From NCBI GenBank assembly GCA_018665815.1, contig JABJBP010000089.1, positions 1-64,000 on the forward strand: a stretch of DNA of 64,000 nucleotides, given 5' to 3'. The notes under the pieces were generated by a model. It was not told the DNA's origin. It saw only the letters and a program-made list of their open reading frames with translations, and ran no database searches. This DNA is from Rhodospirillaceae bacterium (GTDB lineage Bacteria > Pseudomonadota > Alphaproteobacteria > Rhodospirillales > Casp-alpha2). The position numbers and the translations under genes are program-made. Shown one piece after another: positions 25,798 through 63,647 of this stretch. Position 1 is the first letter of the stretch; each line of letters opens with the position of its first letter.

Positions 25798-26001
25798 CCC
25801 TGATGGGTTGCAGTTCTTGATCAGCTGTTTCGGGTTTTAGTTTTTCAAAATAATCTCTGCATACCCCTTGCGGAAATTATTCCCAAACTTATATCATGAT
25901 TAGCGGTCCACATAGAACGGCGGATGCGCTCGCTATTTTATATTATGAATCAGAATGCATCGCGCGGTTCCGTCTCAAGCGGGATTGGGATGGTGCGGTT
26001 T

Positions 26002-26136
26002 GGCAATCCCACGTGGTTACATGGTAGCCACCTAGCTCAGGGATACACGATTGGCGTCTGCGCGCATGTCGGAAAGTTGATCGCAACGTCCCTCCAGGGG
26101 ATGCTTAGCGCATACGCCGCCATGTTAAATAGCGAC
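26002..26136. repeat. Repeat module 2, copy A
   Basis: Contains GGCAATCCCACGTGG at 26002-26016 and the segment TCCCTCCAGGGGATGC at 26089-26104 running into TACGCCGCCATGTTAAATAGC at 26112-26132. The same two blocks occur in copy B at 38761-38825 with high identity; in copy A they are separated by an extra 73 bp. The end can form a hairpin (CGCCAT-GTTAA-ATAGCG, one mismatch) that is equivalent, with one compensatory pair change, to the perfect hairpin in copy B. Confidence 0.75.
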
Positions 26137-26145
26137 GGTGACTTC

Positions 26146-26305
26146 GAATGATGACGAATGATGACATTCGGATGATAAATGCTGATTTGCGGTGAAATCA
26201 TGTACACATTTGTACACCACGCTAAATCTTTGATTCAAAACGCTTCCACTCAATTCCGGCCGTGGAAATGCGTACAAATGATGACTTTTGCAGACGAATG
26301 CTGAC
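26146..26305. repeat. Iteron-like repeat element (module 1), copy A
   Basis: Five copies of a motif of the form GACAAATGMTGAC or close variants start at 26146, 26156, 26174, 26273 and 26293. They lie on both sides of a TGTACACATTTGTACA palindrome at 26201-26216. The first two are 10 bp apart and the last two 20 bp. The internal GTACAAATG at 26272 is the reverse complement of CATTTGTAC in the palindrome. The arrangement and spacing match copy B over 148-149 bp. Confidence 0.8.
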
Positions 26306-38490: not shown

Positions 38491-38535
38491 CCTTCGCGGT
38501 TAAATCGCCGTTTCCGCCCCGCCAGTCCCCATGTA

Positions 38536-38687
38536 GACAAATGATGACATTGGGATGACAAATACTGACTTTGCCAAAAACATGTACACATTTGTACACC
38601 GGTCTAACGCGTTGATATGCAACGATTTCGCCCAAGCGCATCGGTAAAAATGCGTACAAATGGTGACTTTTGCAGACATTTGCTGAC
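38536..38687. repeat. Iteron-like repeat element (module 1), copy B
   Basis: Four motifs of the GACAAATGMTGAC type start at 38536, 38557, 38655 and 38675. Pairs are 21 and 20 bp apart, about two helical turns. Between the pairs lies the palindrome TGTACACATTTGTACA (38583-38598), exactly as in copy A; the GTACAAATG at 38654 is an inverted match to its CATTTGTAC. The central 45 bp differ between copies while the flanks are nearly identical. Confidence 0.8.
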
Positions 38688-38760
38688 AAACCAAAATTCA
38701 AGGGTGGGGCGCACGCCACCCTGGTCGTTCGGCTGCTGCGGGGGGCGGGATGGCCGGCGA

Positions 38761-38840
38761 GGCAATCCCGCGTGGCGCTTCCCTCCGGGGGATGTTCCGG
38801 GCTTACGCCGCCACGTTAAGTGGCGATGTTCCAGGAACAT
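38761..38840. repeat. Repeat module 2, copy B
   Basis: GGCAATCCCGCGTGG (38761-38775) and TCCCTCCGGGGGATG (38780-38794) are followed by a perfect hairpin CGCCAC-GTTAA-GTGGCG (38809-38825), matching copy A at 26002-26136. A further 15-bp palindrome ATGTTCC-A-GGAACAT (38826-38840) is present only in this copy. It lies after module 1 here, but before it in copy A. Confidence 0.75.
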
Positions 38841-51291: not shown

Positions 51292-52152
51292 CTACGCATT
51301 GCGCACGCCCTCGGCCAACTCACTGACCCGGACCAAAACGCGTTCCGCTGTTTCCGGCGCCGCCTTCCCGTCCGCATCAAGATTGTCGGTGATCACCTTG
51401 ACCAACGCCGAGCCCACCACCGCGGCGTCGGCGACGCGCGCGATATTGGCCGCCTGTTCGGGTGTATTGATGCCGAAACCCACCGCGACCGGCAGACCGG
51501 AAGCCTTGCGGATGCGCTCGACATGCCCCGCGACCTCGCCGGCATCCGCCGACTTGGTGCCCGTGATGCCGGTGATGGAGACAAAATAAACAAACCCCGA
51601 TGCGTTCTCGACGACACGCGGCAAACGTTCATCATCGGTTGTCGGCGCGGTCAGGTAGATGAAGTTCAGACACGCGGCAACGGCCGGCAAGCAGAACTCG
51701 CCCTCTTCTTCCGGCGGCAGGTCAACGACGATAAACCCATCGACGCCGGCTTCCTTGGCGTCGACCAAAAACGCCTCGGTGCCGTAGATATAAATGGGAT
51801 TGTAATACCCCATCAGCACGATCGGCGTGTCGTCGTCTTTGACCCGGAAGGCGCGCACTGCATCCAGGGTTTTGGCCAGGGTCATGCCGGCCTTGATGGC
51901 GCGCAGTGAACTGGCCTGGATCGCCGGTCCATCGGCCATGGGATCGCTGAACGGGACGCCAATTTCAATCAGGTCCGCACCAGCCTCAGGAAGCCCGAGA
52001 AGAATGTCCAAGGCCGTGTCAGGATCGGGATCACCGGCGGTCAGGAACGTCACGAAGCCGCTGCGACCTTCTTCCTTCAGGGCCGCGAACCGCCGGGTAA
52101 TCCGGGTTTCGACCCGCGTTTTGCCCCCAGGACTCATTTTTCCGGTACTCAT
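51292..52152 (-). CDS. trpA: Tryptophan synthase alpha subunit
   Basis: Converts indole-3-glycerol phosphate to indole and glyceraldehyde 3-phosphate. The 286-residue TIM-barrel protein shows [17 protein letters not shown] with the catalytic Glu and Asp, and [13 protein letters not shown]. It overlaps trpB by 4 bp. trpA is followed by accD after 42 bp. Confidence 0.96.
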
Positions 52153-53375
52153 TCTTCGGTCACCCCAACGCCCAAGTGTTTGGCGACAGTAAAAATATCC
52201 TTATCACCGCGTCCGCACATGTTCATCACCATGACATGGTCTTTCGGCAGATCCGGCGCGATCTTCGCCACGTGCGCCAGGGCGTGGCTGGGCTCCAATG
52301 CCGGGATGATGCCTTCCATTCGGGTGCACAACTGGAAGGCCTCCAGCGCTTCGGCGTCGGTGACGGAAACGTATTCCACCCGACCGGTATCGCGAAGCCA
52401 GGAATGCTCGGGCCCGATACCCGGATAATCCAATCCCGCCGAGATCGAATGGCCATCCAAAATCTGGCCTTCTTCGGTTTGCAACAGATACGTCCGATTG
52501 CCGTGCAGCACGCCGGGCCTTCCACCAGTCAGCGACGCGCAATGGGCGTCCGTATCCAGCCCATGCCCACCGGCTTCGACGCCAATGATGCGCACGCTCT
52601 CATCATCCAAAAACGGGTGAAACAATCCCATGGCGTTCGATCCACCGCCAAGGCATGCGACGACGCTATCGGGCAACCGCCCCTCGCCCTCGTGTTCCGG
52701 CAATTGCTCACGAACCTCATTGCCGATGATGCATTGGAAATCTCTGACCATCGTCGGATAAGGATGCGGCCCGGCGACGGTGCCGATAATGTAAAACGTG
52801 TCTTCGACGTTCGACACCCAGTCGCGCAGCGCTTCGTTCATGGCGTCTTTCAAGGTGCCGGTCCCGGACGTCACCGGGCGCACTTCAGCGCCCAGCAGCT
52901 TCATCCGAAAGACGTTCGGCGCCTGGCGTTCAACGTCGGTGGCGCCCATGTAGACAATGCAGGGCAATCCGAACAATGCGCACACCGTTGCTGTCGCGAC
53001 ACCGTGTTGGCCGGCGCCGGTCTCGGCAATGATCCGGCCTTTGCCCATCCGCCGGGCCAATAGGATCTGCCCGATGGTGTTGTTAATTTTGTGGGCGCCG
53101 GTGTGGTTGAGCTCATCGCGCTTGAAATAGATTTTCGCGCCGCCCAGGTGCTCGGTCAGGCGCGAGGCGAAATACAGCGGGCTCGGCCGACCAACATAAT
53201 GCTTCATCTGATAATGAAACTCGGCCCAGAAATCGTCGTCGTCACGGGCTTCATTCCAGGCTTTTTCAACCGCCAGAATGAGCGGCATCAAGGTCTCGGC
53301 CACGTAGCGCCCGCCGTAGATGCCGAAATGTCCGTCTTCGTCGACGCCGCCCCGATAGGTGTTCGGTTTATTCAT
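52149..53375 (-). CDS. trpB: Tryptophan synthase beta subunit
   Basis: PLP-dependent enzyme that condenses indole with serine. The 408-residue protein carries [12 protein letters not shown] with the PLP lysine, [13 protein letters not shown] and the GAGQHG loop. It overlaps trpA by 4 bp. In many relatives trpF precedes trpB directly; here about 1.6 kb of unrelated sequence separates them (53376-54953), including a terminase-like pseudogene and a receiver-domain gene. Confidence 0.96.
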
Positions 53376-53575
53376 GTGTTTGGTCCATTCAAGAAACGGC
53401 TAATAAGCCGCCACGAGGCCCGAAATTGCAAGAATTTTTGGCCTTGTAGCACCCGAAACGCCGGCATCACGATGCCTGCTGAAGGATCGGGCGGCGGCAC
53501 TCATAATCGCGCGGATGTACTGAGAAGTACGCAAAGGTCCGCTTCGGTACGCATCGGTACGCAATTGCATTTCAC

Positions 53576-54086
53576 TCAACAGGCCGAAGCCGCAGACCCG
53601 GTGATTTTTCCGCCGCCCACCTTTGCGAAGAATTTTGCGATTTTGGGCGCGCCGGTACGCATCCCCCCATTGCCTAATCCAGCCGCCTCGCCACCCAGCG
53701 CCAAGCCCGGCAGCGCTAGGCCCGGCAGCGCCACGGCCTCAACTGTCCGCTCAACGCGCCGATTGGCCACCTGACGGGCGAATTTCGCCTGCAATTCGGC
53801 GGCACGCGCCGCCGCGTAAAATTGATGATCTTCGAGGGCACGCTGATAGACGATCTCCATCTTGCCCATCAATACTTCGTCGATGCGGCCATGATGCTCG
53901 GCAATCTCCGCCTGCACCTCGCGGATACGTTGGCGGATGGCGCCTACCCGCAACAACCGCCAACCCTGCTTTTTTCGCCGAACGGGCCGCATACCCGGCC
54001 TCGCTCGCCGCCGTCGCCGCTGCGCCGTATTGGACGAAAGCCCGGCAGAAGCGTTCTTGTCTGTGATTGAGAGGCATGGATTGCAT
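53576..54086 (-). pseudogene. Phage terminase small-subunit homologue with +1 frameshift
   Basis: Read from ATG 54086, the first 40 codons give LNHRQERFCRAFVQYGAAAT and ASEAGYAARSAKK, the usual start of terminase_2-type small subunits. The frame then shifts at a run of six A on the coding strand (53968-53978 region); skipping one base restores QGWRLLRVGAIRQRIREV and AELQAKF, the expected continuation, to a stop at 53576. So an intact version would be about 170 aa. The A-run makes a one-base insertion or a sequencing error the likeliest cause. No large terminase or other phage gene is visible nearby; similar solitary terminase small-subunit genes occur in alphaproteobacterial genomes. Confidence 0.65.
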
Positions 54087-54432
54087 ATCTCCGATTGATT
54101 AAAAATTATAGGAAAATTATACGTTTAATGGATATTTATCAATATTATACAAATTTTCGTGTTAATATACCTATAACCCCTTTGCCCTCATACTATCTTA
54201 ACCTAGCATGAAATCGATGCCGGAACATTAATGCAACATTCTATTAAGAGACTCTATTGCCTCATAACTCTATGATATTAAACATATTAATTTTTCATCG
54301 ACATCTCAGCATCCCGACCGACCGAATATCAACGTGCTTTGTTCGGTCGTTCCTTTGCACTTCGGTCCGCTAGTCTTTTGCCAGGACATGAGATCAACCG
54401 GCAGAAGCCGAACGTGTAGGAGACGAAACCCA
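54087..54432. other. AT-rich spacer upstream of the receiver-domain gene
   Basis: A 346-bp stretch with no gene. It is much more AT-rich than the surrounding DNA (15 G/C of 60 in 54121-54180). It must contain the promoter of the receiver gene and of the terminase remnant. A ribosome-binding site TAGGAG lies at 54417-54422. No att site, repeat or tRNA was recognised. Confidence 0.5.
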
Positions 54433-54957
54433 ATGAACAACGTAGACATCAGCCATCTATCCATTTTAATCGTCGACAAAAACCCGTTGCTGCGCACGGT
54501 TTTCCGTCAAGTGCTGCGCGAGTTGGGCGCGCGTACTGTTGAGGCCGTGAGCTCCGTCGAGGCCGGTTTTGACGCGGTACGCAACAGAAATCCGGACATC
54601 ATTCTTGCCGATTGGGGACCAGACTGTGACGGATTGGGGCTGCTGTGCAGGATCCGCATGGATCCACAGAGCCCCAATCCCTACGTGCCGGTGATCGTGT
54701 GCTCGGCCAACACCGAGGCTGAGGCCGTGCTGTCGGCCCGCGACATGGGCATGTCGGAATATCTGGCCAAGCCGGTCTCGGCGAAGTCGTTGTATCAGCG
54801 AATCGCCCGGGTGGTCATGGAACAGCGCTCGTTTGTCAAAACCGGTGAATTTTTCGGCCCCGACCGTCGGCGCCATGAAGATGAGGCCGACGAAAACAGC
54901 CGGCGCGAAACGGAAACCGCGCTGATCGCATCTGGGGCAGTGGCAGCGCCCGCTTAA
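54433..54957 (+). CDS. CheY-like response regulator
   Basis: Receiver-domain protein of 174 residues. The acid pocket is IVDKNP (Asp15; the usual second acid is replaced by Lys16), the phospho-acceptor is Asp60 in ILADWGPDC, a Ser in VIVCSANTE and Lys in LAKPVS complete the switch residues. A C-terminal tail after FFGPDRRR is a pattern I recognise from alphaproteobacterial single-domain regulators. It has no DNA-binding output domain. The gene is convergent with trpF; their stops overlap in a shared TTAA at 54954-54957. No partner kinase is adjacent. Confidence 0.85.
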   Translation: MNNVDISHLSILIVDKNPLLRTVFRQVLRELGARTVEAVSSVEAGFDAVRNRNPDIILADWGPDCDGLGLLCRIRMDPQSPNPYVPVIVCSANTEAEAVLSARDMGMSEYLAKPVSAKSLYQRIARVVMEQRSFVKTGEFFGPDRRRHEDEADENSRRETETALIASGAVAAPA

Positions 54958-55595
54958 GCGGCAGTTACAGCCTCGATAAAGGCACGAATTTCTTCAACGT
55001 TCTTGATGCCGGGCCCGTCCTCTACGCCGGATGACACATCGACCATGGGCGCACTGCTGACACGAATCGCTTCCGCGACGTTTTCAGGCGTCAAACCGCC
55101 TGCCAACACCCATGGCTTTTCCCAGGTTTCGCCGGCAATCAGGTTCCAGTCGAACGCCACGGCATTGCCGCCCGGCCGGGTCGCATCCTTCGGCGGCTTG
55201 GCGTCAAACATCAACACGTCAGCAACGGGGGCATAGGAATGCGCCCGGGCCACGTCGTCCAGGCTGGCGATCGAGATCACTTTCATTACCGGCAGCCCAA
55301 ACTTCGCCCGCACGTCGGCGACACGGGCCGGTGTCTCGGCACCGTGCAACTGCATCATATCGACACCGGCTCCGGCTGTGATCTCGCCCAGCAGGGCGTC
55401 ATCCGCATCGACGCTAAGCGCCACGCGCTTGATACCGTCAGGAACCGTCGCGGTCAGCGCCGCCGCCTCGGCGACCGTGATCGCCCGCGGCGATACGGGG
55501 AAAAACACGAAACCGACCATCGCCGCACCGGCGGCGACCGCTGCCTCAACGCTGTCCGGTGTACTCAGGCCGCAGATTTTAACTTTTGCTGTCAT
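54954..55595 (-). CDS. trpF: Phosphoribosylanthranilate isomerase
   Basis: Tryptophan biosynthesis isomerase of 213 residues. It begins VKICGLSTPDSVEAA with the catalytic Cys, followed by VGFVFFPVSPRAI, MQLHGAETP and SSGVEDGPGIKN with the phosphate-binding loop, all typical. It is separated from trpB by an accessory segment, although trpF-trpB adjacency is usual. A GST gene precedes it on the same strand. Confidence 0.96.
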   Translation of the reverse strand: MTAKVKICGLSTPDSVEAAVAAGAAMVGFVFFPVSPRAITVAEAAALTATVPDGIKRVALSVDADDALLGEITAGAGVDMMQLHGAETPARVADVRAKFGLPVMKVISIASLDDVARAHSYAPVADVLMFDAKPPKDATRPGGNAVAFDWNLIAGETWEKPWVLAGGLTPENVAEAIRVSSAPMVDVSSGVEDGPGIKNVEEIRAFIEAVTAA

Positions 55596-63339: not shown

Positions 63340-63647
63340 GAATGGCTATCCTATCAAAAGAGATTGAACATTGAGGCCAGCCTTTCAGCCGGCGCGCGCA
63401 CAGAAAAATTTCTGCTGTGTGGTTTTTGGTTTTGACAGAAGCGAAGGAAAATGGCAATTGGCAGCGCAAGAGCGGCGTAAGGTTTCATCCGCAATGATCA
63501 ATTTGATCGAAGATGGGGCCAGCATATGACCAGCATATGACCAGCATATGAAATGACGCCTGGGATTATCGACGCAGATATCGGTCCAAATTCGAATGTG
63601 TTCGGATTTGAAATGACCGATCTTCTGCCCAACCGGAGGAAAAAGGC
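63340..63647. other. Intergenic region between aroA and the TIGR02300 gene
   Basis: This 308-bp divergent spacer has no gene. It holds three tandem 11-bp repeats at 63519-63551 and a ribosome-binding site GGAGG at 63636-63640 for the next gene. No tRNA or riboswitch was recognised. Confidence 0.6.
63519..63551. repeat. Three tandem 11-bp repeats
   Basis: CCAGCATATGA is repeated exactly three times in tandem (63519, 63530 and 63541). It lies 97 bp upstream of the TIGR02300-family start codon. CATATG in each unit is palindromic. Confidence 0.95.

Follow-up and report, generated by a model that had tools for sequence, protein, structure and literature searches.

A solitary small-terminase-like gene and phased direct repeats in a Rhodospirillaceae genome: a candidate two-part chromosomal system

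Small-terminase genes are also found outside phages: the SaPI/PICI elements carry a terS module, and in SaPIs the accessible text of the source places this terS in operon I under LexA control (PMC5052747). REPIN/RAYT systems are described as extragenic repeats scattered over a genome that also encodes their cognate gene (PMC3116915, accessible text), and phage P22 packaging can start at pseudo-pac sites, host sites similar to the phage pac site (PMC11226127, accessible text). DNA recognition by small terminases is itself described as poorly defined in the available part of a further source (PMC4737164).

Here we analyze a stretch of 64,000 nucleotides from a Rhodospirillaceae bacterium (contig JABJBP010000089.1; hereafter the window) that contains a small-terminase-like (TerS-like) gene between trpF and trpB. 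As in SaPIs and PICIs, this terS lies outside a phage; unlike those systems, it was not seen within an island carrying integrase and replication genes, and solo sites related to it are scattered. The trpF–trpB stretch contains no integrase, and one is present among the families listed for 71 neighbours of TerS copies in relatives. SaPI/PICI elements have their own packaging site, and the repeat arrays described here are candidates for such a site. The combination of scattered extragenic repeats and a cognate gene within one genome, as known from REPIN/RAYT, is also found here; however, RAYT is a tyrosine (HUH) transposase and REPs are palindromic, whereas the protein here is Terminase_2-like and the repeats are direct with a 10- or 11-bp period. 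P22 pseudo-pac sites are host sequences that resemble a phage pac, whereas the arrays here accompany a host-borne TerS gene. We consider it likely, with a probability of roughly 0.6, that the window carries what is left of one copy of a chromosomal system with two parts, a solitary TerS-like gene and phased direct-repeat sites, the latter located 3′ of the gene and as solo sites. A literature search, with subscription papers and preprints mostly outside its coverage, returned no description of such a system.

The trpF–trpB junction and its TerS-like gene

The initial annotation took adjacency of trpF and trpB as the usual arrangement and saw about 1.6 kb between them here. The intervening stretch measures 1,578 bp, and comparison of the junction in relatives agrees with this view, the gap (estimated from alignment ends) being 58–234 bp at 23 of 29 loci. 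At the other six trpF loci, including those of the same-genus genomes G001–G003, trpB was not found in the available stretch; another long convergent frame, CoA-transferase-like by eye, lies beside trpF in these three genomes (L106–L108). In G004, also of the same genus, the gap is 116 bp and both ends of the spacer align with the trpF–trpB stretch of the window, so that the window has gained about 1.5 kb, roughly between 54997 and 53437. The contents of the stretch are likewise as first read, namely a Terminase_2-like gene split between two frames, a stretch rich in AT, and a gene for a receiver domain:

52149..53375, minus strand: trpB, flanking gene of the added stretch
about 53576..54086, minus strand: solitary TerS-like gene of the Terminase_2 type, whose halves lie in different frames and meet at a run of six A
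54090..54330, no strand: spacer rich in AT that separates the TerS-like gene from the divergently oriented receiver gene, without an exact LexA box
54433..54957, plus strand: receiver-domain gene (PF00072, E 6.8e-20), inside the added stretch
54954..55595, minus strand: trpF, flanking gene of the added stretch

The two frames of the TerS-like gene, covering residues 1–41 and residues 38 onward, overlap at the six-A run. Read through, the protein matches PF03592 (E 1.7e-12; 48.6 bits, cut-off 26.1) as well as PHROG 51; the first half alone reaches 26.0 bits against PF03592, and the second half alone matches no Pfam model. The frame break may be real or an assembly error. With its broken frame and without an exact LexA box, the window copy is decayed.

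In the spacer region, GC content drops to 36% (54125–54374). The receiver gene was considered as a partner of the TerS-like gene and rejected, as it is one of a set of paralogues, which has 15 matches here and is represented in 40 of 41 genomes, and nothing ties it to the system. Rfam yields no match in the window at the gathering threshold. An 11-bp tandem unit repeated three times at 63519–63551 is not of the TerS-array type.

A family of solitary TerS-like genes

This genome encodes two further TerS-like copies, one on contig C144 (L034, a 188-codon frame) and one on C117; the latter (L035) lies within a 526-codon open frame that, by eye, runs into a membrane-protein-like stretch. TerS-like matches (E ≤ 1e-3) were identified in 39 of 150 genomes including this one, many of the compared genomes being incomplete bins, with up to seven matches per genome. 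In a class-wide draw, 35 of 385 genomes match the TerS alignment at E ≤ 1e-6; the one-contig genome G493 has 13 matches and G243 has 9. The eight named records with TerS-like relatives are metagenome bins labelled Rhodospirillales, Rhodospirillaceae, Alphaproteobacteria, or Proteobacteria. PHROG 51 matches all 24 TerS relatives tested; among five intact relatives, none matches an NCBIfam or PADLOC model, including the PADLOC models of anti-phage defence.

As the initial annotation had proposed, we checked the homologue in relatives: it occurs there at many sites as an intact gene on its own, and this genome has one further such copy (L034). The neighbour set comprises 71 of 144 long frames (from L034–L073, with L061 and L064 left out), and these match mostly housekeeping Pfam families, judged from the best 25 of 49 families per search; apart from the integrase, the families listed include one resolvase, one cytosine methylase, and one transposase. 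No large terminase or other phage gene adjoins TerS in the window or among the families listed for the 71 neighbours. Several copies keep a common flanking gene across genomes of one genus. Most TerS pairs are under purifying selection: pN/pS is 0–0.20 among six G243 copies and 0–0.48 in eight further pairs, and dN/dS is 0.13–0.51 in 13 of 15 other pairs. In the two pairs with values near 1, one (L044/L058) has few changes and the other (L040/L054) is out of register by an indel.

Alphaproteobacterial LexA recognizes the motif GTTC-N7-GTTC (PMC3323433 and PMC8565304, accessible text). An exact copy of this motif or its complement lies within 330 bp upstream of 21 of 81 TerS copies, and a one-mismatch form upstream of 33 more, compared with a mean of 1.1 and a maximum of 5 exact boxes in 200 shuffled sets; the rest of the same loci (489 kb) has 0.0097 exact boxes per 340 bp. 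The regions scanned for L061 and L064 were oversized, and neither contains an exact box. Upstream regions of recA have an exact box at 4 of 14 loci. None of the three TerS copies of this genome has an exact box near the promoter; L034 has a degenerate one by eye. In a hand-picked set of 23 TerS leaders, 11 combine an exact box with a −35-like hexamer that starts 15–25 bases after the box start, and this hexamer contains TTGAC in eight. These boxes suggest that the TerS copies bearing them may be SOS induced. In six leaders (L043, L056, L065, L040, L068, and L054), an inverted repeat that extends from the −10 region to the start codon forms a hairpin over the start region (z −2.3 to −4.7), which is a possible second layer of control.

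The predicted structure of an intact relative (L037; mean pLDDT 81) consists of a helix-turn-helix (HTH), two long helices, and a low-confidence tail. SF6 small-terminase chains are its best Foldseek matches, none at E ≤ 0.001, and the sequence profile finds SF6 chains at 1.8e-10. The C-terminal tail varies among TerS copies, and as modelled the TerS-like protein keeps the HTH and helical core and has a tail that is neither conserved nor confidently folded. The family is thus similar to phage small terminases of the SF6/SPP1 type (PF03592, PHROG 51; PDB 4zc3, 2cmp, 3zqq) in sequence family, HTH, and helical core, and differs from them in the variable tail and in having no adjoining large terminase. 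It looks like a small terminase that left phages, with the DNA-binding part kept and the tail free to vary.

Phased repeats behind the gene and at solo sites

Downstream of TerS, we find direct repeats spaced at one turn of DNA: of 40 copies, 12 score at lag 10 and 14 at lag 11, whereas only one of 165 control windows is above threshold at each of these lags; the remaining lags from 6 to 15 score in 0–3 of 40 copies and 1–5 of 165 controls. In the class-wide set, lag 10 scores in 3 of 35 copies and lag 11 in 1 of 35. (Copies with less than 300 bases downstream, 1 of 41 and class-wide 5 of 40, are omitted from these counts.) The G243 copies and most G493 copies have no array. The TerS-associated sites comprise 4 to about 10 direct repeats with 10- or 11-bp spacing, and the units vary by copy, most having a G-three-bases-AC theme (e.g., TGCGTAC, TGTAGAC, GGACGAC, TGTCCAC). 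In the window, a weaker fifth unit continues the array to 53514:

53524..53563, minus strand: four head-to-tail 10-bp units shortly past the TerS stop, seen in the sequence, the lag-10 score, and a pattern match (53527–53563)
53508..53668, minus strand: 3′ site common to the solo elements L302 and L307 (TerS +418..+578; 70% and 75% identity), overlapping the 3′ coding end
26153..26305, plus strand: type A solo site, the cognate of L034, with no TerS gene within the 3.5 kb around it
38525..38690, plus strand: another type A solo site, likewise cognate to L034 and without a TerS gene within the 3.5 kb around it

Searches with the window protein found nothing among 50,697 phage records (E 0.01) and nothing among 72,556 plasmids (E 0.001), and IMG/VR scans with other TerS-like copies returned no relatives. 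A diverged TerS copy matches 87 phage records, with identity of about 40% or less in the best 20 of the 87. Six phage relatives, three of which have a large terminase annotated beside them, show no lag-10 or lag-11 score near threshold and no exact LexA box, both of which occur among the solitary TerS copies.

These observations bear on the two readings of the initial annotation, which saw no other phage genes beside the terminase fragment and took it either for what remains of a lost prophage or for a solitary gene that has another role. There is indeed no other phage gene in the trpF–trpB stretch; this genome has no match to a large terminase (phrog_2, PF03237, Terminase_6N) or an HK97 capsid, and the TerS-like gene as part of a prophage was rejected. 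A terS left behind by a lost phage, with the arrays as its old pac sites, would fit the phage-type family, the broken window copy, and the stops contained in some TerS matches of relatives, but is highly improbable given the mostly housekeeping neighbours, the purifying selection in most pairs, the LexA boxes, arrays, and solo sites, and the lack of relatives in the phage records and IMG/VR scans above. A remnant thus describes the window copy and not the family. For the family we favour a solitary gene with another role because intact solitary homologues exist, most pairs are under purifying selection, the flanks are mostly housekeeping genes, and the LexA boxes and phased arrays are lacking in the six phage relatives.

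To locate arrays elsewhere, a four-unit 10-bp pattern was searched in the 150 genomes with at most one mismatch. Matches occur in 27 genomes, and this genome has 21 at 19 places, 17 of which are away from TerS. The reversed pattern was not used as a control, as it finds the same arrays shifted by 5 on the other strand (7 matches here). An 11-bp GAC pattern gives 41–129 overlapping matches in six genomes of genus g14, where its reversed control gives 0–1. With one solo-site type as the BLAST query, this genome has 12 matches, two of which are the query and the end of the C144 TerS copy. None of the 42 array loci examined outside TerS copies has a TerS match in the available DNA, some of which is cut by contig ends.

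Five of these loci (L318, L321, L328, L329, L333) were dropped from the comparisons with TerS and LexA that follow. Alignments of the solos L302 and L307 cover the window TerS at +418 to +578, and those of L299 and L306 cover L034 from +419 to +601/+634; the common site therefore includes 3′ coding sequence. When solos are compared with TerS genes, 28 of the 32 that could be tested score best against the 3′ end of a copy from their own genome (28 of all 37 solos, of which five, four from G117 and one from G055, had no TerS of their own genome in the comparison). By genome, this holds for 15 of 17 solos here (one weak, L309), 10 of 11 in G033, 3 of 3 in G121, and 0 of 1 in G014. The type of site varies from genome to genome and, within a single genome, even from one TerS copy to another. 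In G033, 4 of 11 analyzed solos keep an exact LexA box upstream without TerS, as expected if a full element had lost its interior.

The window also has another dispersed repeat (GGCAATCCC..GCCGCCA.GTTAA..), at about 25985–26150 and 38720–38840; it precedes the solo array at one place, follows it at the other, and adjoins other solos of this genome.

Array families co-occur with TerS. Of the 22 genomes whose TerS is close (E ≤ 1e-18), 17 have them, versus 6 of 128 others (Fisher 2e-13, ignoring kinship), with author-set array-family thresholds and a line for "close" drawn after the list was known; five of the 22 have none. For all 39 TerS genomes, the counts are 17 of 39 versus 6 of 111 (Fisher 1.7e-7, again ignoring kinship), several of the genomes compared being incomplete. 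CGGATGRACA-type 10-bp arrays are present in G131 and G139, which have no TerS match, and possibly represent the same kind of repeat with another partner.

The copy numbers and the solos raise the possibility of a selfish repeat family similar to REP/RAYT, in which gene and site form one mobile unit, the solos are internal-deletion derivatives that spread within the genome, and the protein serves only this spread or the control of it, together with some further, putative nuclease. This would account for the several copies per genome, for L178 and L179, near-identical copies (97.8% over 1,012 bp) with unrelated flanks, for solo sites that match the local TerS, and for solos that keep a LexA box without TerS. 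However, the TerS protein has no catalytic domain, no terminal repeats or target duplications are seen by eye at the edges of the G243 copies, and the flanking gene common to several copies across one genus suggests long residence, so that we regard this explanation as tenable and clearly short of probable.

Another explanation is that TerS is an SOS-induced chromosome-binding protein that holds or marks the nucleoid from scattered arrays during DNA damage, comparable to Noc and SlmA, which act on the nucleoid at their sites. The LexA boxes, the scattered sites, and the purifying selection in most pairs would agree with such a function; nevertheless, it appears improbable because the distribution is patchy, with no TerS match and no 10-bp array match in the same-genus G001–G003, and because site types differ as described above.

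The proposed two-part system and its possible use

Under the two-part reading, DNA damage would inactivate LexA and free the TerS promoter, a step suggested by the boxes in relatives (the copies of this genome have no exact box). The TerS protein would then oligomerize as phage small terminases do, with its HTHs lined up on the phased repeats, and the bound arrays would mark host DNA. That TerS binds the arrays is suggested by their helical spacing, their position, and the within-genome matching of sites and genes.

Such marking may serve packaging of host DNA by a phage large terminase, a selfish repeat family, or a chromosome-binding function. We hold the first to be the likeliest use because of the small-terminase origin, and put it forward tentatively: the arrays may recruit to host DNA the large terminase of a phage that has been induced or is infecting the cell, and this would spread the element by transduction or waste phage packaging. 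This step is supported by the small-terminase origin and the SOS boxes, and it is weakened by the variable tail and by the lack of a known helper in this genome. Among 15 genomes, seven have a phrog_2 match. A resident gene transfer agent (GTA) or HK97-type helper was considered and rejected: the capsid is present in 11 of 150 genomes, four of which (G047, G054, G077, G145) have a TerS match, and there is no sign of an association. More generally, a host-carried, damage-inducible small terminase with scattered pac-like sites might steer any phage large terminase to host DNA under SOS, resulting in chromosome-wide transduction or in diversion of packaging, which we consider unlikely.

Lone terS genes, LexA boxes, and helix-phased dispersed repeats are joined here and not in the literature found. 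One class of intergenic repeats thereby gains a candidate binding protein, and further bacterial repeats that are dispersed and helix-phased may belong to this kind as well. Having a small-terminase family with presumed sites identifiable from genome sequence also bears on how small terminases recognize DNA. If the packaging reading is true, bacteria can direct phage packaging onto their own chromosome.
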